The notes beneath the pieces were generated by a model that had not been told where the DNA came from, made no database searches, and saw only the letters and a program-made list of their open reading frames with translations. Source: an uncultured bacterium (lineage in GTDB: Bacteria; Verrucomicrobiota; Kiritimatiellia; RFP12; UBA1067). Taken from it: DNA of 64,000 nt. A program made the translations under genes and the position numbers. Position 1 is the first letter of the stretch. Each line of letters opens with the position of its first letter. The stretch is from positions 1 to 64,000 of the forward strand of contig CADCCQ010000027.1 in the NCBI GenBank assembly GCA_902799955.1. The letters are read 5' to 3'. Of this stretch, positions 7,231 through 63,239 are shown in pieces.

Positions 7231-7301
7231 GGCGCCATGTCCCTTCCTTCCCTTTCCCAATTTTTTATGCGATTTTGGTTTATTTTTCCGCGTAATTATG
7301 G

Positions 7302-37285: not shown

Positions 37286-37364
37286 AAGGCCAGGAGCCAA
37301 AAGCCGAAAACACAAGATTTTGCGATTTGTCATTTTTCCACTAGCAATGCATACATATATATGG

Positions 37365-43782: not shown

Positions 43783-43828
43783 CCGGCGGCAGAGGATTGA
43801 CAGAAGGAGCGATCTAACAGAAAGGCAC

Positions 43829-46800
43829 ATGAAGATGATGAAAAAGACGATAGTGACGTTTCTCGCGGCGATAACCGCTTTCAGCGTGTGGGCCGCCAAG
43901 ACGGGAAGCCGCATGGAGGACGCCAAGAAGATCAAGGTCGGCGGATCCGCTACGGTGAAGCTGGTCGCGGAGTACGACGAGTTCGACAAGTCGTACGACT
44001 CCGACAGCGGCGTTTACTGGCTCAAGGTCCAGCTGAACAGGGGCTCTTCCTACACGGTCTGGATCCAGGGCGGGTCCGCCGGGACGGTCGGCATGGACAT
44101 CGACACGGCGGACACCGAGGACGACGACGACGTTCCCGGCGCTTCGTTCGACGACGTCGTGAGCGCCACCTACAACGGCGCGCCGATCCAGTACGCCCAC
44201 ATGGCGGCCGACGCCTGGGACTCGGAGGACCCCTCCAAGTTCTACTACGCGATCTGCATCACCGGCGACGTCGGCAACCAGACGACGGTGTACGTGCAGT
44301 CCGGCATCCGTAACTTCTCCCAGAAGGGCGACGAGAACAGCCCCGAGGCGGTGTCCTTCACGACCGGCTGGAAGTCGGTGACGAGGAAGCTCATCGACGG
44401 CAACTACTACCTCAAGGCGACGCTCAGCGCTGGGTGCAAGTACCGCGTCCGCACCCTGAAGGGCACCGTCGCGAAGCCACTCGACCTCGCGGTCGACACG
44501 GCCAGCGACGAGCTGACATACGACGACTGGTCGGACCCGCTCTATGTGAAGGACTCCAACTACACCAAGACGCAGAATGTCGCGACGGTCATTGTCCCGG
44601 ACTCGAAGGGCACGTTCCTCTTCGAGGTCTCCGACGCCACCAAGGCGGGCTCCAACCTCAACGGGCAGTTCACCTTCTCGTTCAAGAGGGTCCCGGCGCT
44701 TGCGATCGGCTCGCACAAGGCCGTCACCCTCAGCCCGGAGAACGGCTGGTCGCACCAGTTCGTCCCCGGCAGGATCTCCGCCGACGAGAACTACTACGAC
44801 AGCATCATCGACGAGAACCTCTGCGTGATCTCGCTCGCCAAGGGCGACCGCGTGGTCTTCGACACCGACGACGCGTTCGACGCGACGTACGAGATGATCG
44901 TGTACAACCCGTCCGGCAAGATCATCGGCAGGAACACCACCGTCGGCAACGGCAGCTACGACATGCGCGTGGCGATCCAGGCCGACGTGGCGGGCAAGTA
45001 CTACGTCGGCGTGTACGACACGACGCTCGACGTGGGCGACAGGCCGCCCGCCGAGGCGACGCCCCTGACCCTCACCGCGTACTTCGCGGACGACAAGTTC
45101 GGCCCGGCCGACGCGGCCGACCCCGTGGACGACGTGTTCTCGGGCGCTACCGAGCTCGTCCCCGCGCCGCTATCCTACGGACAGGACGTCCTTGTCGGCG
45201 GCTCCCAGAGCGAGGTACACGCGTTCAACGGCGGCGACTGGCGCGACTGGTACAAGGTCGCCTGCCGCGCCGGGCAGACCTACCAGTTCAAGGCGGAGTA
45301 CGCCAGCGACGAGACGACGGACATCGTCCTCGGCTACGAGATATGCACGCTCAACTCCAAGGGCGTCCCCGCAAGGGTCACGTACGCGTCCGGCACGAAG
45401 ACGTACGTCGAGGGCGATACGCTCGAGGACGGCGTGACGCTCAACGCGACGAAGAACGCGATGTACTACATCAGGGTGTTCCCCGCGCTCACCGACGGTA
45501 CGAACGTCATCGAGACGGCGGGCCTGGACTACCCGGACTACAGGGTCCGCTCGGGCGTCACGAAGGTCAAGGCGTTCAACGCCGCGACCGACGTGGTCAC
45601 CGACCCGGTTACGGGCGAGAAGGTCACCAACGTGGTCGACATCGCGCTCGGCAAGCTCGTCGTGAAGTCGACCGGCGTGGCAGGCACATATTCGCTGGGC
45701 ACCGAGACGACGACGTACCCGACAGGCACCTCCCTTGAGCTCGCCGCCAACAGCTACACGGTCAAGTACACCCCGCCGACCGGATTCAAGGCCACCCTCG
45801 CCTCCGAGGTCGCCGCGATCGAGGCCTGGGACACGAACTCCTCGACGAGGGTCGTCGCCGACCAGCCCGTGACCACGCTGACCGCGCGCTTCTACGACAT
45901 CTACGACCAGAAGTACGTGATGTCCACGACGAAGAAGACCACGACGAAGACGGTGAACGGCAAGAAGACGACCGTCACGACGACAGTGAACAACTACTCG
46001 CCAGAGACGGGCGACAACACGATGGAGGGCGCGTTCGCGCTGCCTGCGCCGACCAACACGACGAAGACCGTCCGCCGCTCGCTCTACGTGGAGGACACCA
46101 CGGACTTCTTCAAGTTCACGGCCGTGGCAGGCCGCGCATACACGCTCTCGCTCGCCGACTACGTAGACGGCGGCGCGACGGGCGCGGTGATGACGCTCAT
46201 CCACGCGAGCAACGGCGTGCTGCCGCAGTTCTCGAAGGTGAAGACCGTCGACAAGGCGCTGCTCCCCGCCGGCGTGATCTACGTCCAGGTCGAGCACGCC
46301 GAGGGCTGCGAGGACAAGGACTCCTCCTATGCGCTCTCCTACCAGGCGATGAACGTCGGCACCGTCGGCTTCACCGCGGCGAACTTCAACGCCGCGGAGT
46401 CCGGCGAGTACGCCACGCTCACGCTGAAGCGCACGGCGAAGCAGGGCGCCGTCTCGGTCAACTACACGACCGTGGCCGGCACGGCGCAGCCGGGCAGCGA
46501 GTACTACCCCGCGAGCGGCGTCGTCAAGTGGGCGTCCGGCGACATGGCCAACAAGACGATCAAGATAAGGCTCATCCCCGACCTTGAGCCGACCTGGGAG
46601 TCGAACAAGGTGTTCACCGTCAGGCTGTGGGAGGCCGAGAGGGCCGACTTCGCCGCCGGCGACTACCCGGTGGGATTCATCGCCGGGCGCGACTCCGCCA
46701 CTGTGACGATCACCGAGGCGACCGCGGTTAAGGCGGGCACGGTCTCCATCACCGGCTACGGCCCGAGCGAGTCCGAGATCACGCCCGTCGCCAACCTCAA

Positions 46801-49750
46801 GGCGCCGGTGGTCTCCGGCCAGGTCGGCGCGCCGCTCGTCCTCAGGCTGTCGCGCACTGGCGGCACCAACGGCATCGTCGGCGTGAAGTTCGCGTTCCCC
46901 GGCAAGAACGGCAAGGTGGTCGACACCGCCGTGAAGGCGAAGGACTACGTGGCGCGTGCCGAGACTGACGACGTCGTCAACACCGTCGTCTGGGAGAACT
47001 TCGACGCGACCGACAAGTACGTCACGATCAACACCCTCATGACGACGAACTACACGCTCTCCAAGCAGTTCACGTTCACCCTCGCGGCGCTCACGACGAA
47101 GGGTTACGCAAAGCCCGCGCTCTCCGCCGCGACCGGGACCGCGAAGCTCATCAACAACACCGTCGGCACCACCGCCGCGTCGTTCGCGAACACCGTCAAG
47201 GCGGTGGGCGGCATCACGCAGGCCGTGACCGGCACGTGGTACGTCGACAGGAACGACGGCGAGTTCAAGAGTTCGCCGGCGAACGCCACGCTCACCTACA
47301 CGCTCACGGGCCCTGGCTTCTTCGCCATCAAGCCGCGCCTCAACGACGGCGGCGACGCCGAGACGCCGTCCACCGCGACGCTCAAGCTCCAGATCGGCAC
47401 GCTCAACGCGAAGAAGGCCTTCGTCGCGTCCGAGACGATCGACTGCCTGGCGGAGGGCGCGCCCGAGAGGATCGAGAGGCTGATCGCCGGCTCGAAGGTC
47501 GTCAAGCTCACGTTCGCCGGCGGCAACAAGAAGGAGTTCGTCGAGCTCGAGAACGACGCCGACACCGGCCTGCCGTTCAAGTGGGTGAGGTTCGCCACCG
47601 TGGCGGCCGACAGGCCCATGGCCAAGTCCGTCGTCACGACGAACGGCCTCGAGTCGCTCAGGTGGAAGGTTCCCGCGGCGCTGCAGGACGAGAACATAAA
47701 GGTCGTCGCGAGGTTCGGCACGGTCGCCAAGCTCGCCGCCGCCCACGACCTCGTCACCAACGATGTGGACGTGGCCAGCGCCCCGATCGCGGAGGGGACG
47801 CTCCTGCCCGCCAAGACATACTACTGGACGCTTGCGTTCGGCCTCGGCGACGAGCCGGAGACCTGGATCGCCCATCCGACGACGTGGAGCTTCTCTGTCA
47901 TCAAGGACGGCTTCCCGGAGACATCCTTTGGCGGCCTTGACCCGTGGGGCGACAACATTTCCCTGAAGATCGCGAAGGAGGAGCCGATCACGCTGATCCA
48001 GACGCTCAAGGCGCCGCTCACGCTCACCGGCACGGCGTCCGCGAACCGCTTCAGGCTTGCCGGCGGCAAGCTGCCCCCGGGGCTCGCCATCAACGCGACG
48101 ACCGGCAAGCTCACCGGCGCGCCGTCGACGCCCGGCGAATACGATGCGCTGCTCCAGGCCTACTACTACAAGCAGACGACCAAGACCGTGAACAGGAAGA
48201 AGGTCACGACCACGACGACGAACTACGGCACGACCCAGCAGGTCAAGTTCATCGTCGAACCGGCGGGCCTTGCGATCGGCACGTTCAGGGGCGCCCTCGT
48301 TGAGACCGGCGCGCAGGTGTCGAAGAACTCCGCCAAGACCGGCCTCGTGACCGTCTCCACGACGTCCGCCGGCAAGATCACCGCGACCGTCAAGGTCTCC
48401 GGCAACTCCTACACGTTCACCGGCACGGGCTATGACGAGCTGACCGACGAGAAGGACGACGGCGGGCTCGGCCGCGAGTTCTCGGTGAAGCTCAGGAACA
48501 TCACCTCGCTCGTGAAGACGACGACGAAGACCGTGAACGGCAAGAAGACGACCGTCAAGACGTCGACGCCGTACACCAACGAGCTCGAGCTCGTCGTCTG
48601 GGACGGCTCCGTCACCAACGCCACCGCCATCGGCGAGTCGATCGGCTCGGCGAGGCTCGTGATGAACGTGCCCAACACGCTTGTCGCGAAGGCGACGACG
48701 ATGGAAGGCGGCATCGAGTACAACGCGGAGCTCTTCCGCGCCTGCGGCGGCACGGACGTCGGCAAGGCGGCCCTCGCGCCGTTCGCCGGGTACTATACGA
48801 TCGCCCTTGCGCCAAGCGGAGTCTCCGCGGCCGACGGCGTCCCGCTCGGCAACGGCTACCTCACGATGACGCTCTCGGAGACGGGCGGCGCGACGTTCGC
48901 CGGAATGCTCGCGGACGGCGCGGCGGTCTCCGTCTCCTCCGCGGCGTCGGTGCAGGGCGCGGACGTCCTCGACCCCGACCAGTGCGTGGTTTGCATACCG
49001 TTCCACTTCTCCGCCGACATCCGCTCGGTCACCGGCGTCATGAAGCTCGTCTACGCGACCGACGGCGACGGCAACGCCGCGCCGGTCGTGGACTCGACGT
49101 CCATGTTCCTCTGGAGCCGCGACAAGGCGGCGGCCGCTTCGCTCGACGGCCTCGGCTACGCCATCGACGTCGCGCCGACGGGCGGCTGGTACAACAAGAC
49201 GTGGAACGTCCAGCGCTACTACCTCGACAGCGACCTCGCCATACAGGCCGCCGGCGCGGAGGAGCTCGCCGCCGTCGCCGACGCGACCGGCACCCTCGGC
49301 ACGGGCTACGAGTTCAAGCCGTACTGCACGCCGACCGACCTCTCGGTCAAGCTGACGAACAACGGCGTGTCGGTCGACAAGCGCGCTCTCGTGAAGGAGT
49401 CGTCGACGCTCCTCTACGACCTCGCCAAGAGCGTCAACCCGTGGGCGGCCACGTACTCCTACGCCAGGGCGACCGGCCTTGTCTCCGGCACGTTCTCCGC
49501 CTGGAAGGAGACCCCGGCGACGACGAAGCAGGGCGAGATCAAGAGCATCGCCCACAAGGGCGTGATGATCTTCTTCCGCGACGACGCTTCGCCGCTGGAC
49601 GAGAACGCCTGGTCCGCCGGTTACTACCTGATCCAGGCCACCAAGAACTGGAAGGCGTCGCTGCCGTTCAACGTGATCGCCACGCCGATCAGCGGCGGGC
49701 GCGACTGGAACGAGACGCCCGTCCCCGGCGAGGAACCTGACGGGGACTGA
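43829..49750 (+). CDS. Giant secreted Calx-beta / Ig-like repeat protein
   Basis: 1973 residues with a signal peptide (TIVTFLAAITAFSVWA). The N-terminal third contains repeated prepeptidase (PPC)-like beta-domains (YWLKVQLNRGSSYTVWI; DWYKVACRAGQTYQFKAEY). A clear Calx-beta domain lies near residues 845-960 (GEYATLTLKRTAKQGAVSVNYTTVAG...GSEYYPASGVVKWASGD). A putative-Ig module follows (RLAGGKLPPGLAINATTGKLTGAP). Threonine/lysine motifs of the form TTKTVNGKKTT occur near residues 700, 1450 and 1562. The last two modules match those of the preceding gene. It is likely a cell-surface or adhesive protein. The gene is 46 bp after the previous one and 5 bp before the ligase-like gene. Confidence 0.82.
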   Translation: MKMMKKTIVTFLAAITAFSVWAAKTGSRMEDAKKIKVGGSATVKLVAEYDEFDKSYDSDSGVYWLKVQLNRGSSYTVWIQGGSAGTVGMDIDTADTEDDDDVPGASFDDVVSATYNGAPIQYAHMAADAWDSEDPSKFYYAICITGDVGNQTTVYVQSGIRNFSQKGDENSPEAVSFTTGWKSVTRKLIDGNYYLKATLSAGCKYRVRTLKGTVAKPLDLAVDTASDELTYDDWSDPLYVKDSNYTKTQNVATVIVPDSKGTFLFEVSDATKAGSNLNGQFTFSFKRVPALAIGSHKAVTLSPENGWSHQFVPGRISADENYYDSIIDENLCVISLAKGDRVVFDTDDAFDATYEMIVYNPSGKIIGRNTTVGNGSYDMRVAIQADVAGKYYVGVYDTTLDVGDRPPAEATPLTLTAYFADDKFGPADAADPVDDVFSGATELVPAPLSYGQDVLVGGSQSEVHAFNGGDWRDWYKVACRAGQTYQFKAEYASDETTDIVLGYEICTLNSKGVPARVTYASGTKTYVEGDTLEDGVTLNATKNAMYYIRVFPALTDGTNVIETAGLDYPDYRVRSGVTKVKAFNAATDVVTDPVTGEKVTNVVDIALGKLVVKSTGVAGTYSLGTETTTYPTGTSLELAANSYTVKYTPPTGFKATLASEVAAIEAWDTNSSTRVVADQPVTTLTARFYDIYDQKYVMSTTKKTTTKTVNGKKTTVTTTVNNYSPETGDNTMEGAFALPAPTNTTKTVRRSLYVEDTTDFFKFTAVAGRAYTLSLADYVDGGATGAVMTLIHASNGVLPQFSKVKTVDKALLPAGVIYVQVEHAEGCEDKDSSYALSYQAMNVGTVGFTAANFNAAESGEYATLTLKRTAKQGAVSVNYTTVAGTAQPGSEYYPASGVVKWASGDMANKTIKIRLIPDLEPTWESNKVFTVRLWEAERADFAAGDYPVGFIAGRDSATVTITEATAVKAGTVSITGYGPSESEITPVANLKAPVVSGQVGAPLVLRLSRTGGTNGIVGVKFAFPGKNGKVVDTAVKAKDYVARAETDDVVNTVVWENFDATDKYVTINTLMTTNYTLSKQFTFTLAALTTKGYAKPALSAATGTAKLINNTVGTTAASFANTVKAVGGITQAVTGTWYVDRNDGEFKSSPANATLTYTLTGPGFFAIKPRLNDGGDAETPSTATLKLQIGTLNAKKAFVASETIDCLAEGAPERIERLIAGSKVVKLTFAGGNKKEFVELENDADTGLPFKWVRFATVAADRPMAKSVVTTNGLESLRWKVPAALQDENIKVVARFGTVAKLAAAHDLVTNDVDVASAPIAEGTLLPAKTYYWTLAFGLGDEPETWIAHPTTWSFSVIKDGFPETSFGGLDPWGDNISLKIAKEEPITLIQTLKAPLTLTGTASANRFRLAGGKLPPGLAINATTGKLTGAPSTPGEYDALLQAYYYKQTTKTVNRKKVTTTTTNYGTTQQVKFIVEPAGLAIGTFRGALVETGAQVSKNSAKTGLVTVSTTSAGKITATVKVSGNSYTFTGTGYDELTDEKDDGGLGREFSVKLRNITSLVKTTTKTVNGKKTTVKTSTPYTNELELVVWDGSVTNATAIGESIGSARLVMNVPNTLVAKATTMEGGIEYNAELFRACGGTDVGKAALAPFAGYYTIALAPSGVSAADGVPLGNGYLTMTLSETGGATFAGMLADGAAVSVSSAASVQGADVLDPDQCVVCIPFHFSADIRSVTGVMKLVYATDGDGNAAPVVDSTSMFLWSRDKAAAASLDGLGYAIDVAPTGGWYNKTWNVQRYYLDSDLAIQAAGAEELAAVADATGTLGTGYEFKPYCTPTDLSVKLTNNGVSVDKRALVKESSTLLYDLAKSVNPWAATYSYARATGLVSGTFSAWKETPATTKQGEIKSIAHKGVMIFFRDDASPLDENAWSAGYYLIQATKNWKASLPFNVIATPISGGRDWNETPVPGEEPDGD

Positions 49751-51705: not shown

Positions 51706-51792
51706 TTGTGGCATTATACCTGTATGCGGGCGTTCTGACGAAGAGGAATGATTCACGGCGGCATTGAAAACCTTGTTTTGTTGTGGTATAAT
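51706..51792 (+). promoter_or_regulatory. Double-promoter repeat unit before the first HzsA-like gene
   Basis: TTGTGGCATTAT (51706-51717) is followed by GCGTTCTGACGAAGAGG, and then by TTTTGTTGTGGTATAAT (51776-51792). The two -10 positions are 75 bp apart, as at 20680-20760. ATG 51800 is 7 nt after the second -10. This is the whole 51685-51799 intergenic region. Confidence 0.75.
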
Positions 51793-51799
51793 TTCCTCC

Positions 51800-54700
51800 A
51801 TGAGGAAAATGACATTCACTGCAGTTCGCGCGCGACTGGCCTTCCTGGCCGTGGTCGCAGCCACGGCTACGATTAGTGCTGAGCCGACGGCGTTGAAGGA
51901 CGCCGCGTTCAGGCTAGACGCGGCGAACGCCGCGACGCTCACTGTCGACGAGGGCGGGCGCGTCCTGGAATGGCGTTCCTGCGCGGGCGGCGGCGCGGCG
52001 ACTCCGCGCGCCAAGTTCGGCAAGCCCGTCCTGAAGAAGGACGCCGCGGGGCGCCCGTTCGTCGATTTCGGCGCGCAGGGCAGCTGCATCGACCTGGCGT
52101 TCCCCAGGGTCGAGGGGATACGCACCGTGTTCGCGGTCGGGAAGTTCGCAGAGTCGAACTACTGCCACGTCCTCTGCGACGGCGTGGAGTACAACTTCCA
52201 CCGCGGCGACGACGGCGCGTATGCGTCCGCTGATTGGTCTAAGATCGCGAAGGCGTGGGACGGCACGAACGAGGTGGTGTGCATCCACTCCGAAATCATG
52301 CCGTCCGACGGCGTCAGGGTCTTCTGCCTGGAGATGCGCGAGCCGAGTTTCGCCGACAGGCTCACGGGCGACAGGGACTTCGCCGATCGCAACGGCGGGC
52401 GCGAGCTTCGCGAGGTCGTCGTCTTCCGCCGCGTACTCTCCGACGCCGAGCGCCTCGAGGTGACGCGGCACCTCTCCGGCAAGTGGCATGCCCTCGACAC
52501 GCCGCCCGCCAGGCGCTCGTTGAACACTGACTGGCGGCTCATCAGGCGCGACATCGACAACTGGCACCGACTGCCCACAAACACCCTGGACACTTCCGCC
52601 AACGCCGCCGCCTGCATCCTCCCCTGCGACGCCGACCCGCTCGTGGTGGCGCTGCGCCGCACGCGCGCGCTCATCGACGACCTCGCGCCGTCGGTCGACC
52701 TCGCCGCCGAGCGCGCGGAGTTCGCCGGCCTTGCGGCGGACGCCTTTGCCGCCATCGACGAGACGTCCCGATGGGAGCTCTTCGCGCGCGTAATGGCGCT
52801 CAACCGCCGCGTCGCCCTGAAGAACCCGCTACTCAAGGGAATTGACCGACTGCTCTTCGTCACGCACGAGCCGTGCGGTTTCAACGAGTGGCGCGACGGT
52901 TCGCACATGTGCGACCAGTACTACGGCTTCCACGGCACGCAGAACGGCATCTCGCGTGGCGACGGACTCTACATCCTGGAAAACCCGTTCTCCGAGAAGC
53001 CGGTCGCGCGCAACATCCTCGCCGGCAAGGTAATCGAGTCGGGCGCGTGGAAGGGGCAGACCCTCGACGGCTGCGCGATTATTTCGCCGGACATCGACTG
53101 GGACGGCAGGCGCATCGCGTTCGCCGCCGTGAAGAACAACAGCAAGCTCGACAAGTGGGAGGACGGCACATGCTACCACGTGTTCACGTGCAACCTCGAC
53201 GGCTCGAACCTGCGCCAGCTCACCAGCGGGCCGTGGAACGAGTTTGATCCGTGCTGGCTGCCGAACGGGCGAATCGCGTTCATCTCCGAGCGGCGTGGCG
53301 GCTACGTGCGCTGCTCGGGAAATCGTCCCGTACCGTCCTTCACGCTCCACACGATGTTCGACGACGGCACGGACATCGTGCGCCTCTCGCACCACGAGAC
53401 GAACGAGTGGCATCCGAGCGTGAACAACGACGGCATGATCGTCTACACGCGCTGGGACTACGTCGATCGCGGTTCCGGCCAGGCGCACCACGCATGGACG
53501 TGTTTCCCCGATGGACGCGACCCGCGCGAGCTGAACGGCAACACGCGCATCAACTCGAAAACCACGCCCCGGATGGAGATGAACATCCGCCAGATTCCGG
53601 GTTCGCGCAAGTACGTCTCCACCGCCACGCCACACCATGGCTGGGCGGCTGGTTCGCTCATCGTGATTGATCCCTCGGTGCCAGACGACGGCGAGATGAG
53701 CGCCATCCGCCGCATCACGCCGGAACAGCCGTTTCCCGAGGCGGAGCAGAACACTTTCCGCAACCGCAACAGCGGCTCGTATGCGACGGCGTGGCCGCTC
53801 AGCGAGAAGTACTTCATCTGCGCCTACGACGGCGACGCGAACGGAATGTACAAGGTGCCGATGCGCGGGCGCCGCTATGCGATCACTCTCGTCGACGTCT
53901 TCGGCAACAAGACGCGGCTCTACACGCACCCCGGGACGTCGTGCCTCGACCCGATGCCGCTGATGGCGAGAAAACGGCCGCCGGTGATCCCCCACAAGAC
54001 GCTCGAAGGCGCGCCCAGGGGATGGGTTTATCCGGAAAATCCGGTGAAGACGGGCGAGATCGGCCTCATCAACGTCTACGACACGCGCATCCCGTTCCCG
54101 ACGAACGAGACAATCACCGCCCTGCGCGTGTGGCAGCTCTTCCCGAAGGTGAAGCCGCTGCAGCAGAAACCGTGGCTCGGTGCAGAAGTCCACCAGACCG
54201 GACGCCAGTGCCTCGGCACGGTGCCGGTGGAGGCGGACGGCAGCGCGTATTTCACCGCGCCCGTGGGCGTGCCCATTTTCTTCCAGGCGCTCCGTGCTGA
54301 CGGTTGCGCCGTGCAGAGCATGCGCAGCGACACGTACCTGCACCCCGGCGAACGGCTTTTGTGCGCAGGGTGCCACGAGCCCAAGGAGAACACGCGCCGC
54401 ACGGCGTTTTCATCCCTCCCGCTTGCGATGCGCCGCGTGCCAAGCGCGATCAAGCCAGGGCCCGACGGCTCAGCGCCGTTCAACTACGCGCGTCTCGTGC
54501 AGCCCGTCCTCGACAGGAAGTGCGTTTCCTGCCACGGGGAGAAGCGCAAGCCGAAGGCGCCCGATCTCCGCGCGGGCGACTGGCGCAAGGACAAGTGGGG
54601 CTTCTCGACGAGCTGGAGCAATCTCGTACATCGCACCAACTACTTTGCCTGGGAAATGGTCGAGAGGAAGCGAACGGATTGGGCGTTCTTCACGCCCGCC

Positions 54701-54901
54701 TATACGGAGCCTGGCCGCTATCTTGCGATGAACGCCCCGCTCAGGAAGATGCTCGACGCGGGCCACCACGGCGTGAAGCTCACGCCCGAGGAGCGCGAGC
54801 GTCTGATCCTCTGGATGGACTCCAACGGACAGTACATCGCGCACGACCACGATCCCGATGCCCAGCGCGACGGGAAGATCGTAAAGCCTTCGCTGGAGTG
54901 A
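51800..54901 (+). CDS. HzsA-like dihaem beta-propeller protein 1, with N-terminal LamG-like domain
   Basis: 1033 residues, start at 51800 (MRKMTFTAVRARLAFLAVVAATATISA signal). Residues about 30-235 form a concanavalin/LamG-like domain. From about 245 the protein resembles hydrazine-synthase alpha-type proteins: HMCDQYYGFH, then a TolB/PD40-like propeller (VFTCNLDGSNLRQLTSGPWNEFDPCWLPNGRIAFISER; DGTDIVRLSHHETNEWHPS; YTRWDYVDRG; ATPHHGWAAGSL). Two c-type haem sites follow, CAGCH at 855-859 and CVSCH at 908-912. The end is GHHGVKLTPEERERLILWMDSN. It should be a periplasmic or surface cytochrome. Hydrazine chemistry is not implied because no beta or gamma subunit genes are present. Confidence 0.82.
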   Translation: MRKMTFTAVRARLAFLAVVAATATISAEPTALKDAAFRLDAANAATLTVDEGGRVLEWRSCAGGGAATPRAKFGKPVLKKDAAGRPFVDFGAQGSCIDLAFPRVEGIRTVFAVGKFAESNYCHVLCDGVEYNFHRGDDGAYASADWSKIAKAWDGTNEVVCIHSEIMPSDGVRVFCLEMREPSFADRLTGDRDFADRNGGRELREVVVFRRVLSDAERLEVTRHLSGKWHALDTPPARRSLNTDWRLIRRDIDNWHRLPTNTLDTSANAAACILPCDADPLVVALRRTRALIDDLAPSVDLAAERAEFAGLAADAFAAIDETSRWELFARVMALNRRVALKNPLLKGIDRLLFVTHEPCGFNEWRDGSHMCDQYYGFHGTQNGISRGDGLYILENPFSEKPVARNILAGKVIESGAWKGQTLDGCAIISPDIDWDGRRIAFAAVKNNSKLDKWEDGTCYHVFTCNLDGSNLRQLTSGPWNEFDPCWLPNGRIAFISERRGGYVRCSGNRPVPSFTLHTMFDDGTDIVRLSHHETNEWHPSVNNDGMIVYTRWDYVDRGSGQAHHAWTCFPDGRDPRELNGNTRINSKTTPRMEMNIRQIPGSRKYVSTATPHHGWAAGSLIVIDPSVPDDGEMSAIRRITPEQPFPEAEQNTFRNRNSGSYATAWPLSEKYFICAYDGDANGMYKVPMRGRRYAITLVDVFGNKTRLYTHPGTSCLDPMPLMARKRPPVIPHKTLEGAPRGWVYPENPVKTGEIGLINVYDTRIPFPTNETITALRVWQLFPKVKPLQQKPWLGAEVHQTGRQCLGTVPVEADGSAYFTAPVGVPIFFQALRADGCAVQSMRSDTYLHPGERLLCAGCHEPKENTRRTAFSSLPLAMRRVPSAIKPGPDGSAPFNYARLVQPVLDRKCVSCHGEKRKPKAPDLRAGDWRKDKWGFSTSWSNLVHRTNYFAWEMVERKRTDWAFFTPAYTEPGRYLAMNAPLRKMLDAGHHGVKLTPEERERLILWMDSNGQYIAHDHDPDAQRDGKIVKPSLE

Positions 54902-54907
54902 CGGACC

Positions 54908-57361
54908 ATGAGGAAAGCCGCCTTGCTGCTCCTGAACGGAATCCTCCTCGCGTCGTTCGCGCTCGCGCGCGAATGGCCCGACGCGGGCGGCGAGCACGAG
55001 TACGCCGTCCTGGACTGGAATCTCATCGAGCGCGACATAAAGGGCTGGGGGCGGCTGCCGCGGCTGTCGACGACGCAGAGCGTGAACACCGCCGCGTGCA
55101 TCCTGCCCGGCGACAAAGACCCGACAGGCGTCGTCATCCGCCGCACGCGCGCTCTCATCGCAGACCTCGCGGCGGAGGGCGTCGACCTCTCCGAGGAGAA
55201 GAGGGAGCTCGACGAGCTTGCGGCGCATTACGCCAAGCTGAACAACAGCACCGCCGAGACTCGCTTCGCGGCGTTTGCGGCTGTTCACGCCCTCAACCGC
55301 AGAGTGTCCCTGCGGAATCCGCTGCTGAAGGGCATTCGGCGACTCGTCTTCGTCGGGCACGAGGCTACGCCGGTTGGCCCCCATGGCGACGGCTGGCACA
55401 TGTGCGACCAGTACTTCGGCTTCAACGCCACGTGCTACGGATCCACCATCGGCGACGGGCTGTACATACTGGAAAACCCGTTCTCCGACCATCCCGTCGC
55501 GCGCGACATAACGTCCCTGGGCCCTGGCGGATACCTCTCGCCGGACGTTTCCTGGGACGGCTCGACCATCGCCTTCGCCTACACCCGCTGCGAACGCGGC
55601 GGCAAGAGGAAAAGGTGGGAGGAGGGGACGTGCTACCACATCTTCACGTGCGCGACGGACGGCTCGAATCTCCGCAAGCTCACGAGCGGGCCGTGGAACG
55701 ACTTCGACCCATGCTGGCTCCCGAACGGACGCATAGCCTTCATTTCCGAGCGGCGCGGCGGATACGGGCGCTGTCACGGGCGCCCCGTGCCGACGTATAC
55801 CCTGCATTCGATGTTCGACGACGGCACTGACATCGTGCGGCTCTCGCACCACGAGACCAACGAATGGCATCCGAGCGTCGACGCCAACGGAATGATCGTC
55901 TACACGCGCTGGGACTACGTCGACCGCGGCGCCGGGCAGGCGCACCACGCCTGGACGACGTATCCCGACGGACGCGACCCGCGCGAGGTGAACGGCAACA
56001 CGCGCCTCCACGCCTACACCACCCCGAAGATGGAGATGAACGTGCGGCAGATCCCCGGCTCGCGCAAGTACGTCGCCGTGGCGACGCCGCACCACGGCTG
56101 GGCCGCGGGCTCCCTGATCATGATTGACCCGTCCGTTCCGGACGATGGCGAGATGAGCGCCGTGAGGCGCATAACGCCCGAGCATCCGTTCGCCGAGAGC
56201 GAGACGGGGACCGTCGGGGGGTACGCTACGCCGTGGCCGCTCAGCGAGAAGTACTTCATCTGCGTCTACGACGGCAACGCCAACAGCAAGTACGGCGAGT
56301 CGGCGATCCGCCACTACGTCATCACGCTCGTGGACGTATTCGGCAACAAGACGCGCCTCTACTCTCACCCGACAATCTCGTGCCTCGACCCGATGCCGCT
56401 CCAGGCGCGGGAGAGGCCGCCGGTTCTGGCGCACCAGACGCTGGAGGGCAGGCCGGAAAAAACGGGAAGTCCGGCGGGTGCGGACCGCGATTCGCAGTTG
56501 CCCAAGACGGGCGAGATCGGCCTCGTCAACGTCTACGACACGCGCATTCCGTTCCCGACGAACGAGACGATAACCGCGCTCAGGGTGTGGCAGCTGTTTC
56601 CGAAGACTCAGCCGCTGCAGCAGCATCCGTGGCTAGGGCCCGACCAGCGGCAGATCGGCCGCCAGTGCCTCGGGACCGTCCCCGTCGAGAAGGACGGCAG
56701 CGCGTACTTCACCGCGCCGGTCGGCGTTCCGCTCTTCTTCCAGGCGCTCCGCGCCGACGGCTGCGCCGTGCAGAACATGAGAAGCGACACGTACCTGCAC
56801 CCGGGCGAGAGGCTGATGTGCGCCGGGTGCCACGAGCCGAAGGAGAACACGCGCCGCACGGCGTCCTCGGCCCTCCCCGCCGCGATGCGCCGCGAGCCAA
56901 GCGCGATCAAGCCCGGGCCTGACGGCTCCGCGCCGTTCAACTACGCCCGCCTCGTCCAGCCCGTCCTCGACGCGAAGTGCGTCTCATGCCACGGCGAGAG
57001 GCGCAGCCCCAAGGCGCCGGACCTGCGCGCCGGCGACTGGCGCAAGGACGAGTGGGGCTTTTCGACGAGCTGGAAGAGCCTTTTGCCGTACTCGAACTAC
57101 TTCGTGAAGGGGATAATCGACAGCGGGAAAAGGCTTGACTGGGAGTTCTTCGAGCCAGCGTACACAATGCCCGGCAGGCATCTCGCGATCGGTGCGCCTC
57201 TCAGGAAGATGCTCGACGCCGGGCACCACGGCGTGAAGCTCACCCACGAGGAGCGCGAGAGGCTGGTCCTGTGGATGGACTCCAACGCCCAGTACATCGC
57301 GCACGACACAGACCCCGAGGCTCAGCGCGACGGCAAGACCGTAAAACCCGAATTGGAGTGA
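54908..57361 (+). CDS. HzsA-like dihaem beta-propeller protein 2
   Basis: 817 residues, six bases after paralogue 1, with its own signal peptide (LLLLNGILLASFALA). It lacks the LamG-like domain and starts at the WPDAGGEHEYAVLDWNLIERDIKGW block. The propeller is closely similar to paralogue 1 (TCATDGSNLRKLTSGPWNDFDPCWLPNGRIAFISERRGGYGRC). Haem motifs are CAGCH at 638-642 and CVSCH at 691-695, both intact. The two genes are surely co-transcribed. The family is annotated as HzsA-related in many planctomycete and verrucomicrobial genomes, with no established function that I know of. Confidence 0.82.
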   Translation: MRKAALLLLNGILLASFALAREWPDAGGEHEYAVLDWNLIERDIKGWGRLPRLSTTQSVNTAACILPGDKDPTGVVIRRTRALIADLAAEGVDLSEEKRELDELAAHYAKLNNSTAETRFAAFAAVHALNRRVSLRNPLLKGIRRLVFVGHEATPVGPHGDGWHMCDQYFGFNATCYGSTIGDGLYILENPFSDHPVARDITSLGPGGYLSPDVSWDGSTIAFAYTRCERGGKRKRWEEGTCYHIFTCATDGSNLRKLTSGPWNDFDPCWLPNGRIAFISERRGGYGRCHGRPVPTYTLHSMFDDGTDIVRLSHHETNEWHPSVDANGMIVYTRWDYVDRGAGQAHHAWTTYPDGRDPREVNGNTRLHAYTTPKMEMNVRQIPGSRKYVAVATPHHGWAAGSLIMIDPSVPDDGEMSAVRRITPEHPFAESETGTVGGYATPWPLSEKYFICVYDGNANSKYGESAIRHYVITLVDVFGNKTRLYSHPTISCLDPMPLQARERPPVLAHQTLEGRPEKTGSPAGADRDSQLPKTGEIGLVNVYDTRIPFPTNETITALRVWQLFPKTQPLQQHPWLGPDQRQIGRQCLGTVPVEKDGSAYFTAPVGVPLFFQALRADGCAVQNMRSDTYLHPGERLMCAGCHEPKENTRRTASSALPAAMRREPSAIKPGPDGSAPFNYARLVQPVLDAKCVSCHGERRSPKAPDLRAGDWRKDEWGFSTSWKSLLPYSNYFVKGIIDSGKRLDWEFFEPAYTMPGRHLAIGAPLRKMLDAGHHGVKLTHEERERLVLWMDSNAQYIAHDTDPEAQRDGKTVKPELE

Positions 57362-57417
57362 CCCGCAATGAAGAGCACGACAGCCTTGCCCCCATTGCGG
57401 CGGGGAAAGAAAAATGG

Positions 57418-57423
57418 TATAAT
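57418..57423 (+). promoter_or_regulatory. Extended -10 before the third HzsA-like gene
   Basis: AAATGGTATAAT ends at 57423. ATG 57429 of a 13-codon ORF is 5 nt downstream, and the main gene starts at 57467. Paralogue 3 thus has its own promoter in addition to read-through. Confidence 0.65.
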
Positions 57424-57428
57424 TCTCA

Positions 57429-57470
57429 ATGGCGGGCCGGGGAAGGACTTCTCGGCAATGTGAACTATGA
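57429..57470 (+). CDS. 13-codon upstream ORF overlapping paralogue 3
   Basis: The peptide MAGRGRTSRQCEL ends at TGA 57468-57470, overlapping ATG 57467 (ATGA). A second short ORF in another frame (57368-57463, beginning MKSTTALPPLRRGKK) ends 3 nt before the same start. Confidence 0.35.
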   Translation: MAGRGRTSRQCEL

Positions 57471-60013
57471 AAGCATCTACTTGTAACCTCGTAATGAGCA
57501 CGGCTACCTCCATAAGTCTCTGCGCCGCCGCAGCTGCGTTCCTCGCGTTGCCTGCCGCGGCAGGTGAATGGCCGGACGCCGGCGGCGCGCACGAGTACGC
57601 GCGTCTCGACTGGGAACTCATCGAACGCGACATCAAGAACTGGGGCGGCCTGCCGGCGCTCACCGCGTCGCAGAGCGTGGACACCGCCGCCTGCATCCTT
57701 CCGGGGGACAAGGACCCCCTCGACGTGCTGATCCGCCGCACGCGCGCGCTCATCGCCGACCTCTCCGCCGCCGGGGTCGACCTTTCCGCCGAGACGCGCG
57801 AACTTGACGGGATCGCCGCGCGCGCGGTGGCGTCCCGCCGCGACTGGCGCGAGACGCGCTTCCCAGCATTCTCCGCCGTGCACGCCCTCAACCGCCGCGT
57901 CGCGCTCAAGAATCCGCTCCTGAAGGGGATCGACCGCCTCGTGTTCGTCGGGCACGAGGCCCTGCCCCTTGACGAGTTCAACGGCGGCTGGCACATGTGC
58001 GACCAGTACTTCGGCTTCCACGCCACGATGCACGGCGCGACGGTGGGCGACGGGCTCTACGTGCTGGAGAATCCGTTCTCCGACCACCCCGTCGCGCGCG
58101 ACATCCTCGACGGGCGCGTTGTGGAGGACGGCGACTGGAAAGGGCAGACCCTCGGCCCTGGCGGATACCTCTCGCCCGACGTCTCGTGGGACGGGAAGTC
58201 CATCGCCTTCGCCTACACGCGCGGCAAGCCGGAGATACGCAAGTGGAACGACAACACCGTCTACCACGTCTTCACCTGCGCCGCGGACGGCTCGTCGCTC
58301 CGCCAGCTCACGACGGGCTGCGTCAACGACTTCGACCCTTGCTGGCTGCCCAACGGGCGCCTCGCATTCATCTCCGAGCGGCGCGGCGGGTTCGGGCGCT
58401 GCCACGGGCGCCCCGTGCCGACGTTCACGCTGCACACCATGTTCCCCGACGGGACTGACATCGTGCAGCTGAGCCCCCACGAGACGAACGAGTGGCATCC
58501 CAGCGTAGACCACGACGGCATGATCCTCTACACTCGCTGGGACTACGTCGACCGCGGCTTCAGCCAGGCGCACCACCTCTGGCGGACGACGCCCGACGGA
58601 CGCGACCCGCGCGCGGTGAACGGCAACACGCGCGAGAAGCATTCCGGGTCCAGCCCCCTGATGGAGATGAGCGGGCGCGCCGTGCCGGGTTCTCGCCTCT
58701 ACTCCGCCGTCGCCGCGCCGCACCACGGCTGCGCCTACGGCTCGATCATCCTGGTCGACCCCGCGAAGCGCGACGACGACAGGATGTCGCAGGTGCGCCG
58801 CGTCACGCCTGAGCAGCCGCTCCCAGAAAGCGAGACGCGCGGCGGCGGGCAGACCAGCGGCGCGTACGCGACGCCGTGGCCGCTGAGCGAAAAATACTTC
58901 ATCTGCGTCTATGACGGCTTCGCCAACGGGAAGTACAACGTGCGCTCCGTCAGGCGGTATGCGATAACGCTCGTGGACGTATTCGGCAACAAGACGCGGC
59001 TCTACACCCATCCCACCATCTCGTGCCTCGACCCGATGCCGCTCATGGCGCGCACAAGGCCGCCGATCCTCGCTCACCAGACGCTCGTCGGGAGGCCGGC
59101 CAACCCCGACGGCACGCGCCCCGCGGTCATCCCGCCGGACGCGCTTCCCAGGACGGCGCAGATTGGCCTCGTTAATGTCTACGACAGCAAGATCCCGTTC
59201 CCGTCCGATGCAAAGGTCTCGGCGCTGCGCATCTGGCAGGTGCTGCCGAAGTTCAGCCCGCTCAACAGCCGTCCGCGCCTCGGCGCGGAGACGCAGCAGG
59301 TGGCGCGCCAGTGCCTGGGGACGGTCCCCGTCGAGGCGGACGGCAGCGCGTTCTTCGAGGCTCCGGTAGACGTCCCGCTCTATTTCCAGGCGCTCGACGC
59401 GGAGGGGTGCACCGTGCAGAACATGCGAAGCGACACATACGTCCACCCAGGCGAGAAGCTGATGTGCAACGGCTGCCACGAGGAGCGCACGACCGCCGCC
59501 CGCAAGCCAGGCGCCGACCTCCCGGCCGCGATGCGCCGCGCGCCGAGCCGCATCAAGCCCGCTCCCGAGGGGGCGAAGCCGTACAGCTTCGCGCGCCTCG
59601 TGCAGCCCGTCCTGGACGCCAGGTGCGTCTCGTGCCACGGCGAGAGGCGCGCCCCGAAGGCGCCGGACCTGCGCGCCGGCGACTGGCGCAAGGACCCGAA
59701 CGGCTTTTCGACGTCGTTCAACTCGCTGATGCCGTACGTCCACTTCTTCGCGTACGACTACGTGGTTACGCACAAGCGCCGCGGACACTACCAGTCGTTC
59801 TTCGAGCCGGCCTACACCGCCCCGCGCACGACGGGCGCGTACGCCTCGCCGCTCTACGCGATGCTGAAGAAGGGGCACCACGGCGTGAAGCTCACGCCGG
59901 AGGAATGGGAGCGACTCCTCGTGTTCATGGGCTCGAACGCCCAGTACGTCGGCCACGACCACAAGGTGGAGGAACAACGCGACGGCAAGATCGTCCCCCC
60001 GCCTTTCGAGTGA
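57467..60013 (+). CDS. HzsA-like dihaem beta-propeller protein 3
   Basis: 848 residues; signal peptide MSTATSISLCAAAAAFLALPAAA begins at residue 10, so 57494 is an alternative start. Order and motifs follow paralogue 2: WPDAGGAHEYARLDWELIERDIKNW, HMCDQYFGFHAT, TCAADGSSLRQLTTGCVNDFDPCWLPNG, YTRWDYVDRG. Haem sites are CNGCH at 667-671 and CVSCH at 720-724. It diverges from the others in the propeller (APHHGCAYGS in place of TPHHGWAAGS) and has an extra insert before the C-terminus (YVVTHKRRGHYQSFFEPAYTAP). This suggests a specialised role within the set. Confidence 0.82.
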   Translation: MKASTCNLVMSTATSISLCAAAAAFLALPAAAGEWPDAGGAHEYARLDWELIERDIKNWGGLPALTASQSVDTAACILPGDKDPLDVLIRRTRALIADLSAAGVDLSAETRELDGIAARAVASRRDWRETRFPAFSAVHALNRRVALKNPLLKGIDRLVFVGHEALPLDEFNGGWHMCDQYFGFHATMHGATVGDGLYVLENPFSDHPVARDILDGRVVEDGDWKGQTLGPGGYLSPDVSWDGKSIAFAYTRGKPEIRKWNDNTVYHVFTCAADGSSLRQLTTGCVNDFDPCWLPNGRLAFISERRGGFGRCHGRPVPTFTLHTMFPDGTDIVQLSPHETNEWHPSVDHDGMILYTRWDYVDRGFSQAHHLWRTTPDGRDPRAVNGNTREKHSGSSPLMEMSGRAVPGSRLYSAVAAPHHGCAYGSIILVDPAKRDDDRMSQVRRVTPEQPLPESETRGGGQTSGAYATPWPLSEKYFICVYDGFANGKYNVRSVRRYAITLVDVFGNKTRLYTHPTISCLDPMPLMARTRPPILAHQTLVGRPANPDGTRPAVIPPDALPRTAQIGLVNVYDSKIPFPSDAKVSALRIWQVLPKFSPLNSRPRLGAETQQVARQCLGTVPVEADGSAFFEAPVDVPLYFQALDAEGCTVQNMRSDTYVHPGEKLMCNGCHEERTTAARKPGADLPAAMRRAPSRIKPAPEGAKPYSFARLVQPVLDARCVSCHGERRAPKAPDLRAGDWRKDPNGFSTSFNSLMPYVHFFAYDYVVTHKRRGHYQSFFEPAYTAPRTTGAYASPLYAMLKKGHHGVKLTPEEWERLLVFMGSNAQYVGHDHKVEEQRDGKIVPPPFE

Positions 60014-60111: not shown

Positions 60112-62110
60112 ATGGCAAAGCGCGACATACCCCTCGAAAGAGTGAGGAACTTCGGCATCATGGCCCACATCGACGGCGGCAAGACGACGACGTCCGAGCG
60201 TATACTTTACTATTCCGGCAAGAACTACAAGATCGGCGAGGTGCATGACGGCGCCGCGACGATGGACTTCATGGTTCAGGAGCAGGAGCGTGGCATCACG
60301 ATCCAGTCCGCCGCGACGTGCGTCCAGTGGGGCGACTACCGCCTCTCGCTGATCGACACCCCCGGACACGTGGACTTCACGGCCGAGGTGGAGCGCTCGC
60401 TGCGTGTCCTCGACGGCGCGGTGGCGCTCTACTGCGCTGTCGGCGGCGTCCAGCCGCAGTCCGAGCAGGTCTGGCGCCAGAGCGAGAAGTACAAGGTGCC
60501 CAAGATCGCGTTCGTCAACAAGATGGACCGCGTCGGCGCGAATTTCTACGGCGTCATGGAGCAGATGAAGAGCCAGCTCGGCGCGAACCCCGTCCCGATG
60601 GTCATCCCGATCGGCGCGGCGGAGACGTTCGACGGCGTCATCGACCTCGTCAAGATGAAGGCCCTCTACTTCGACATGAAGAGCCTCGGCAAGACGGTCA
60701 TCGAGAAGGACATCCCCGAGGAGTACGTCGAGAAGGCGAAGGAGTGGCGCCAGAAGATGGTCGAGAGCGCCGCCGAGCAGGACGACGCGCTCATGGAGAA
60801 GTTCTTCGCGGGCGAGGAGCTGACGGTCGACGAGATCAAGAAGGCGATCCGCAAGGGCTGCCTCGCGAGGACCATCACCCCGGCGTTCTGCGGCACGGCG
60901 TTCAAGGACAAGGGCATCCAGCCTCTCCTCGACGCGGTCTGCGACTACCTTCCGTCCCCGCTCGACACCGGCGCGGCGGTTTCCGCCGACGACCCCACGC
61001 AGAAGCGCGAGCCGAGCGACAACGAGCCGTTCTGCGGCCTCGCGTTCAAGATCATGAACGACCCGAAGTCCGGCGGCAAGATCACGTTCGTGCGCGTCTA
61101 CTCGGGCACGCTCAAGCTCGGCGCGGAGCTTCTCGACTCCACGATCTCCAAGGAGCAGCGCATCTCCCGCCTCTTCCGCATGCACGCCGCGAAGCAGGAG
61201 CCTCTCGACGAGGCCCACGCTGGCGACATCGTCGCGTGCGTCGGCCTCACCGACACGCGCACGGGCGACACGCTCTGCGACCCCGACCATCCGATCACGC
61301 TCGAGTCCATCGACTTCCCGGCGCCGGTCATCTCGGTCGCCGTCAAGCCGAAGAGCCGCGGCGACAACGAGAAGCTCGGCGCGGCGCTCCACGCGCTAGC
61401 GATGGAGGACCCGACGTTCGTCGTCACCTTCGACCAGGAGACGAGCGAGACGATCATCGCCGGCATGGGCGAGCTCTACCTCGAGGTCATCGTCGACCGC
61501 CTGAAGCGCGAGTTCAACGTCCCGGCGGCCGCGGCCAGTACGCCCACGTCTGCCTCCGCCTCGAGCCGCAGGAGCCCGGCAAGGGCTTCGAGTTCGTCAA
61601 CGAGGTCAAGGGCGGCGTCATCCCGACGGAGTACATCCCGGCGGTCGAGAAGGGCGTGCGCAAGGCGCTCGAGTCCGGCCCGCTCGCGGGCTTCCCGGTC
61701 GTGGACGTCAAGGCGACGGTGTACTTCGGCTCGTACCACGAGGTCGACTCGAACGAATTCGCGTTCATCACCTGCGCGATGCAGTGCAGGCGAAGCCGCA
61801 GCTCCTCGAGCCGATGATGGACGTCGAGGTCGTCGTCCCCGAGCAGTACATGGGCGCCGCCAACGGCTCCATCAACCAGCGGCGCGGACGCGTCGAGGGC
61901 ATGGACGACCGCGCGGGAGTCAAGCTCATCAAGGCGACGGTCCCGCTCGGCGAGATGTTCGGCTACTCGAACGCGATCCGCACCGTGACGCAGGGCCGCG
62001 GCTCGTTCACGATGATCTTCAAGCAGTACGAGGCCGTTCCCAAGAACATCGCCCAGGAGGTCATCGAGAAGCGCATCAAGGAAGGCAAGGTCCGTCCTTC
62101 CGCAGAGTGA
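60112..62110 (+). pseudogene. fusA: Elongation factor G gene with two out-of-frame internal deletions
   Basis: EF-G sequence is plain: [21 protein letters not shown] (Walker A), [73 protein letters not shown]. At about 61525 the frame shifts: EFNVPA is followed, in another frame, by GGRGQYAHV, and the ~27 family residues between (GKPQVAYRETI region) are missing. At about 61788 a second shift joins FAFITCAMQ to AKPQLLEP, losing about 8 residues. The last part (to SAE, stop 62110) is normal. Each deletion must be 1 mod 3. If real, no full EF-G is made from this copy; an assembly error or a second fusA elsewhere would explain viability. Confidence 0.85.
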
Positions 62111-62117
62111 TCTGTAA

Positions 62118-63239
62118 ATGACAACCAGGTCATTCAGGCCGTCCGCGCTGGCCGCGCCGCTATTCGCGGCGCTCGCCGTCACGCGGGCGGCCTTCGCTTT
62201 GAATCTGCCGTCCGCGCCGTCGCCGCGCGTCAACATCGCCGGCATCGCCCACCTGCAGTTCGACGCCGCCGCGTTCGTCGAGGGCGTCCCGCTCGCGGTG
62301 AAGGGGCTTGCCATAATGCGCAATGCCGCCGCCAGGGAGGCGAAGCACAACGCCGAGCTCGCGGCGAAGGGGATCGCGGAGGTCCCGATGTCCCGCGCCG
62401 CCGTGAAGTACGACCTCGACACCCACGGCCTCGGGGACCTGCTCTTCGACGACTGGGGCGAGCTGTACATAGACCGCCGCTTCGTCACCGACGAGGAGAT
62501 GAAGACGATACAGGAGATCGAGGCGTTCGTCTGGAACCACATCCTCGGCCCGATGCAGCAGGCGGGGGTCCTCCCCTCGCAGCCGAAGGGGGCGAAGGGC
62601 AGGCCCGGCGCCGCGCCTGCGGTGCGCGCAGGCGTCCGCAAGCCGCGCGCCAGCGCGGGCGGCAAGGGGCTCCCCGTGTTCCGGGGCTTCGAGGACGCCC
62701 GCTACCAGCGGCACGACGCTCTCATAGCCAAGATGACCGCCGAGTTCAACGCCGACAAGGCGAAGTGGTGCGGCGGCACGACGAACCAGATTGCGAAGAT
62801 CGCCGACCTCACGCCCGCGCAGGTGAAGTCCCACATGATCGAGGAGTCCGGCGGCAACGGCCCGCGCTCCAAGGCCGCGTGGGCGGTGGACCCGCTCCAG
62901 GTGAACGTCCCGGGCGACTGGGGGCGCGAGAAGGAGCTCGTCGGGCTGGTCAAGCCAACGAAGCGCAACGAGGGCACGGCGGAGCAGAACGTCCGCGCCG
63001 CCATCATGTACCTTTCCCGCAAGGGGTTCGGCGCTTCCGGACGCCCCGCCTCCGAACGCCCGAAGGGCTTCTTCGACGGATGGCAGAAGGCCCTCCAGCG
63101 CTACAACGGACGCCGCGACCGCACGGACACCGACCGCTGGTACAGCGACGAATACGCGGACAAGATCATCCGCCGCGCAAACAACCCAGACCTGTTCGTC
63201 CCCATCGAGATCAAGCTCGCGGCGAAGAAGGCGAATTGA
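62118..63239 (+). CDS. Secreted protein, possible lysozyme-fold (lytic transglycosylase-like)
   Basis: 373 residues with a signal peptide ([18 protein letters not shown]). Residues about 85-140 ([39 protein letters not shown]) are helical. A Pro/Gly/Ala/Arg linker follows at about 155-185. The C-terminal ~190 residues contain [27 protein letters not shown] and ALQRYNG. These recall the catalytic E-S-G and the A-x-x-x-Y-N of transglycosylase SLT domains. The match is partial and made by eye. The gene starts 7 bp after the fusA stop and ends 2 bp before the TPK start, so all three may be one transcript. Confidence 0.5.

Follow-up and report, generated by a model that had tools for sequence, protein, structure and literature searches.

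Three consecutive genes for HzsA-like proteins

The window, a 64-kb stretch of DNA from a gut or rumen bacterium, contains three consecutive intact open reading frames (P1, P2 and P3), all on the + strand. The assembly is 3.8 Mb in length and 92% complete; among named organisms, Kiritimatiellae of the rumen and gut are its closest relatives. The features of the locus, in window positions, are as follows.

51784..51792, + strand: TGGTATAAT, extended -10-like promoter element 5' of P1, with TTGAAA 17 bp upstream
51800..54901, + strand: P1, HzsA-like dihaem propeller protein with an extra N-terminal domain (1033 aa; PF18582 E 8.7e-18)
51872..52444, + strand: P1-only N-terminal beta-sandwich domain by structure model (tentatively lectin-like), kept in P1 orthologues
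54362..54376, + strand: P1 haem alphaI motif CAGCH; the next residues are EPKE (YGSY in Kuenenia)
54521..54535, + strand: P1 haem alphaII motif CVSCH
54761..54784, + strand: P1 GHHGVKLT, second His at the HzsA His772 position by profile alignment
54908..57361, + strand: P2, HzsA-like dihaem propeller protein (817 aa; PF18582 E 1.4e-17)
56819..56833, + strand: P2 haem alphaI motif CAGCH
56978..56992, + strand: P2 haem alphaII motif CVSCH
57221..57244, + strand: P2 GHHGVKLT with the His772 equivalent by profile alignment
57415..57423, + strand: TGGTATAAT, promoter-like element 5' of P3, one of 4 in the window against 0.02 expected
57467..60013, + strand: P3, HzsA-like dihaem propeller protein (848 aa; PF18582 E 1.1e-19)
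59465..59479, + strand: P3 haem alphaI motif CNGCH; the next residues are EERT
59624..59638, + strand: P3 haem alphaII motif CVSCH
59873..59896, + strand: P3 GHHGVKLT with the His772 equivalent by profile alignment

P1 most likely starts at the ATG at 51800, which we prefer over a TTG at 51764. Over their common ~800 residues, P1 and P2 are 71% identical, P1 and P3 61%, and P2 and P3 67%. Each protein has a signal-like N-terminus, the blocks HMCDQY and HETNEWHPS, and two CxxCH motifs, with the CAGCH/CVSCH, CAGCH/CVSCH and CNGCH/CVSCH pairs exactly as a first-pass annotation of this DNA had described them. Judged by sequence, this confirms P1–P3 as exported dihaem proteins, with covalent haem attachment predicted. 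The ~200-residue N-terminal extension is found in P1 and not in P2 or P3. The same annotation had called it LamG-like; the extra domain is there, but no Pfam family matches it at E 0.01 or better. Structure modelling (pLDDT 89.5) gives it a beta-sandwich fold, for which the best matches are weak and include lectin-type and CBM6 domains; we regard "LamG-like" as plausible, not proven.

The four copies of TGGTATAAT (positions 7299, 37362, 51784 and 57415) all lie on the + strand directly 5' of genes. P2 follows P1 after a gap of 6 bp, and the copy at 57415 supports the earlier proposal that P3 has its own promoter; a sigma-70 scan, which requires a -35 box, missed this copy when used alone. P1 and P2 would form one transcript and P3 a separate one. 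At 37362 and 51784 a start codon lies 8-9 nt downstream of TGGTATAAT, which suggests that these transcripts may be leaderless.

Upstream of the triplet, the region 39031-49750 encodes exported-looking proteins of 1583 and 1973 aa, the larger with Calx-beta and Ig-like domains and the smaller with no Pfam hit and a CGHC near its N-terminus. Right after P3, fusA (EF-G; 60112-62121) is broken relative to intact 700-aa copies from the same genus, matching them in three frames with ~25 residues unmatched between, through either an assembly error or real damage. A comparison of empty sites at fusA found that the upstream gene varies among same-genus genomes. Contamination of the contig was considered and rejected: the gyrB gene in the window is 83-93% identical to those of same-genus genomes, and the GC3 of P1–P3 lies within the range spanned by the genes of the window.

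Relationship to hydrazine synthase

Hydrazine synthase (HZS) acts on NO, hydroxylamine and ammonium and, to our knowledge, is known only from anammox bacteria. P1–P3 score 64.5-71.2 bits against PF18582 (HZS_alpha), above its curated cut-off of 26.6 bits; Pfam also detects PD40 and weak generic cytochrome c matches. HzsA itself (PDB 5c2v_A) was matched by P3 alone (E 6e-9), by a 61-sequence profile (E 4e-20) and by a broader 45-sequence profile (E 2.6e-49; best stretch chain 217-766). We compared an AlphaFold model of P3 (pLDDT 87.4, pTM 0.89) with the PDB using Foldseek. The best match was Kuenenia HzsA (E 2.7e-27, 825 columns, TM 0.55-0.60); the second-best were TolB beta-propellers, which share the propeller fold but have no haem domains and an unrelated role. 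The homology of P1–P3 to the HzsA family is far beyond chance. The first-pass description of HzsA-like dihaem propeller proteins thus holds: PF18582 and the Kuenenia structure both match, the fold does so over the full length, and the profile match exceeds generic PD40 repeats plus CxxCH motifs. Against the NCBIfam equivalog for HzsA (NF052339), P1–P3 reach only 40.5-52.9 bits and fail the cut-off of 800. At the family level, P1–P3 are firmly HZS-like and not HZS.

We mapped ligand residues by profile alignment to 5c2v, where chain number plus 27 gives the published number as counted on the printed sequence (chain Cys276, His560, Tyr564 and His745 are published Cys303, His587, Tyr591 and His772). 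The roles of Tyr591, Cys303 and His772 are described in PMC12607021 and PMC12758564. The haem alphaI CxxCH is kept in all three proteins, whereas Tyr591, the iron ligand of that haem, is replaced at H+4 by Glu in P1 and P2 and by Thr in P3. The zinc ligand Cys303, which is not universal even in anammox (PMC12758564), is replaced in a local alignment by a Thr after GN in P1–P3. Haem alphaII has His772 (chain His745) as its distal ligand; P1–P3 keep the alphaII CxxCH, and in the alignment the second His of their GHHGVKLT falls on the His772 position, where it is a predicted ligand. Since Tyr591 and Cys303 are replaced while fold and motifs are kept, P1–P3 fall outside HzsA yet retain its fold and haem sites. 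A true hydrazine synthase was ruled out by the NF052339 scores together with the missing alphaI ligand and zinc residues.

P1–P3 share with Kuenenia HzsABC (PDB 5C2V) the alpha-subunit layout of a six-bladed propeller, a middle domain with haem alphaI and a C-terminal cytochrome with alphaII, matched along their full length by profile and fold. HZS-like alpha and beta-gamma families outside anammox have already been published from PVC bacteria (PMC12758564, clades I-IV; PMC10732223), and the present proteins resemble them in being distantly homologous to HzsA, in lacking Tyr591 and Cys303, and in being accompanied by a fused beta-gamma; PMC12758564 reports the loss of both residues in other homologues, and P1–P3 agree. 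Compared by reported residues, P1–P3 differ from clade I of PMC12758564 in keeping the His772 position, which is missing there. They also differ from the published families in that the copies here are many and partly in tandem, and in that CcsBA tracks the genes. Neither PMC12758564, in which the word Kiritimatiellae does not occur, nor PMC10732223 deals with gut Kiritimatiellae, and the P1–P3 system is a new variant alongside these published families. On function, PMC10732223 proposes that the enzymes form a wide family acting on other substrates, and PMC12758564 reports that none of the relatives among its top structural hits has a function confirmed by experiment.

Partners, maturation and relatives

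The earlier annotation noted that nothing in the window supplies an electron partner or cytochrome c maturation. Within the 64-kb window this is correct, and we found no beta/gamma or maturation gene there; elsewhere in the genome, it is not. A beta-gamma homologue, fused into one protein of 615 aa (NF052342 E 1e-43), is encoded on contig C76; it consists of a YncE-type propeller plus a MauG-type dihaem part, and its consecutive halves match 5c2v_B and 5c2v_C. The hzsB/hzsC homologue is thus present, but not at equivalog level: it scores 150 bits against the cut-off of 1250 for the fusion equivalog NF052342, and the beta and gamma subunits fall short of the equivalogs NF052340, NF052341 and NF052342. 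In an alignment built from fragments, gamma Cys165 (the third haem bond) and His144 are absent from this protein, with Gly and Val in their places. The alpha genes P1–P3 lie on C27 and are not adjacent to beta-gamma. For maturation, there is one 363-aa ResB-CcsA fusion (system II) on C48, ~6 kb from another alpha gene, so the refuting condition named in the earlier annotation, absence of any maturation system from the genome, does not apply.

The genome encodes nine PF18582 proteins, P1–P3 and at least six elsewhere, and all seven of its PF00034 matches (the one cytochrome family surveyed) are in HZS-type proteins. In addition to the nine, a dihaem stretch on contig C5 looks by inspection like a fragment of such a protein that lacks the propeller. 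On C5 (L164:6906-9839), a cellulase-like frame runs through an apparent frameshift into this propeller-less protein, which is small and resembles the C-terminal half of HzsA. In our tree the nine fall into seven subfamilies, and the six proteins other than P1–P3 belong to separate old subfamilies common to PVC phyla; we therefore rejected a lineage-specific burst of nine copies.

The suggestion that the set was "specialised by duplication" survives in part. P1–P3 are indeed paralogues, but P1 and P3 have lone-gene orthologues in other rumen and gut genomes (L010-L012 and L017 for P1, L025-L028 for P3), and the other six proteins are separate old subfamilies. No orthologue of P2 was found, and none of the 57 same-genus genomes has a close relative of it. 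The tandem triplet does not seem to be conserved: tandem alpha pairs, mostly of different subfamilies, occur in ~9-10 of 119 other loci, and L073 has three in a row, but among the loci examined we found no second triplet of the P1–P3 clade. Among same-genus genomes, 3 of 55 others carry a PF18582 gene, one each. Together with the lack of P2 relatives, this makes the source species unusual in its genus for HzsA-like genes.

Across 92 relatives, PF18582 was found in 19 and CcsA in 18: both in 17, alpha alone in 2, CcsA alone in 1 and neither in 72 (p 2e-15, inflated by kinship). Within the genus the counts were 3 with both, 1 and 1 with either alone and 51 with neither (p 6e-4, kinship again overstating independence), and elsewhere in the order nearly all positives belong to a single family (f3). 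The exceptions are incomplete assemblies (82 and 81% for the alpha-only genomes, 72% for the CcsA-only genome). The HzsA-like proteins are likely dependent on CcsBA.

We found no conserved operon partner of P1–P3; the families of the adjoining genes change between loci. An alpha gene lies beside a beta-gamma gene in L057 (in the order alpha, beta-gamma, alpha, alpha), in L063 and in L086/L130; L086 and L130 probably come from the same organism. Another genome of the same genus (G013) has a short version of the beta-gamma gene, which encodes one haem motif and shares 4 bp with CcsBA. A beta-helix/CBM_6 gene lies at most 13 bp upstream of the P1 orthologues in L010-L012, and its counterpart adjoins beta-gamma in the present genome. 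Two HzsA-like genes on other contigs of the genome have redox-type neighbours. On C99 (L091:2321-6285), the HzsA-like gene shares 4 bp with the gene of a secreted oxidoreductase of the FAD-dependent type (PF12831), which is a candidate redox partner. On C74 (L092:3002-5916), the genes directly 5' of the HzsA-like gene encode an aldo/keto-reductase-like protein that contains clusters of cysteines and a 4Fe-4S membrane protein that has a DUF1893 domain.

Carbohydrate links and a proposed role

Among 45 diverse alpha-like proteins, we counted NPCBM domains in 5, F5/8 in 5, Laminin_G_3 in 2, CBM_6 in 2 and an FGE-like domain in 10, with overlapping matches left in. In two HzsA-like proteins (L092:6111-9200 on C74 and L093:8908-12606 on C1), the last part of the C-terminal FGE-sulfatase-like domain contains no cysteines, and formylglycine-generating activity therefore seems unlikely. 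Many glycan enzyme genes lie near alpha loci, but enrichment is not established, because control genes further away are likewise glycan-rich; the near and far Pfam tallies list 25 families each, and no enrichment test was drawn from them. A literature search on 3-keto-glycoside pathways returned nothing relevant. Precedent exists in the superphylum: PSCyt proteins combine c-type haem domains with carbohydrate-binding modules, are encoded near sulfatase genes and have a proposed role in carbohydrate metabolism (PMC5615132). Their domain families differ from those here, and P1–P3 have no PSCyt Pfam match at E up to 1. We treat a sugar role for the HzsA-like proteins as a lead.

Our preferred reading, to which we assign a probability of roughly 0.4, is that P1–P3 are extracytoplasmic dihaem alpha subunits of an HZS-like cytochrome system that does not make hydrazine and has a redox role in glycan use. 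CcsBA would attach the haems. The single beta-gamma protein would work with any of several alpha subunits, some of which carry sugar-binding domains; we consider this partnership plausible. The His-ligated haem alphaI beside the propeller would face the substrate and haem alphaII would relay electrons, the net reaction being a redox step on glycan-derived sugars or, alternatively, on some small molecule dealt with while glycans are broken down outside the cell. The HzsA fold, the pattern of kept and lost ligand residues, the beta-gamma homologue, the tracking of CcsBA, the alpha/beta-gamma linkage in relatives, the beta-helix/CBM_6 gene that adjoins beta-gamma here and P1 orthologues in L010-L012, and the sugar-binding fusions argue for this reading. 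Against it, beta-gamma is unlinked to P1–P3, lacks gamma Cys165 and His144, and would have to serve nine or more alphas; the co-occurrence counts depend on kinship, glycan enrichment is not established, and no terminal electron acceptor was identified in the genome, with cytochrome bd absent. A wider version, which we hold doubtful, is that in rumen and gut Kiritimatiellae the HZS-like alphas and beta-gamma are the main or only c-type cytochrome system, modular and glycan-targeted, with swappable sugar-binding alphas.

The alphas might instead be stand-alone acceptors that take electrons from a nearby secreted sugar oxidoreductase, either FAD-dependent PF12831 or Tat-exported Gfo/Idh type, making beta-gamma unnecessary. 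The overlapping C99 gene pair fits this model, as do a similar neighbour in L031/L032 and a Gfo/Idh-like gene with an exported-type N-terminus preceding the P3 orthologue in L027. We nevertheless think it rather unlikely: no such oxidoreductase gene lies beside P1–P3, the pairing occurs in few loci, and Gfo/Idh genes are equally common among control genes. Some further nitrogen-oxide chemistry in place of hydrazine synthesis, in which haem alphaI or gammaI would act on substrates such as NO, nitrite or hydroxylamine, would suit homology to an enzyme of nitrogen chemistry and the presence of a beta-gamma homologue, but the losses of alpha Tyr591 and Cys303 and of gamma Cys165 and His144 make it improbable, and the carbohydrate-binding fusions point elsewhere. 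We give similarly little credence to a mainly binding or sensing role, with the propeller as a glycan-binding scaffold and the haems only structural or redox-sensing. The TolB-like propeller and the sugar-binding fusions agree with such a role, whereas the haem motifs and alphaII distal His are strictly kept in P1–P3 and maturation tracks the genes. That the host is an unrecognised anammox organism with a true hydrazine synthase is barely conceivable despite the PF18582 match and the beta-gamma homologue, given alpha scores of 40-53 bits against 800, a beta-gamma score of 150 against 1250 and the missing alphaI ligands.

Set beside Kuenenia HzsABC, the present proteins lack counterparts of Tyr591, Cys303, gamma Cys165 and His144, score far below the equivalog cut-offs, and combine multi-copy alphas unlinked to beta-gamma with extra sugar-binding or FGE-like domains. 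A host with alpha copies that vary, a single beta-gamma and a maturation gene that tracks them offers a way to test what the non-anammox relatives do. Should the sugar link hold, herbivore guts would contain a haem-based redox step of glycan use that has gone unrecognised. If the modular glycan-redox reading is true, the HZS superfamily would gain an activity, and with it a guide to the function of its ancestors.
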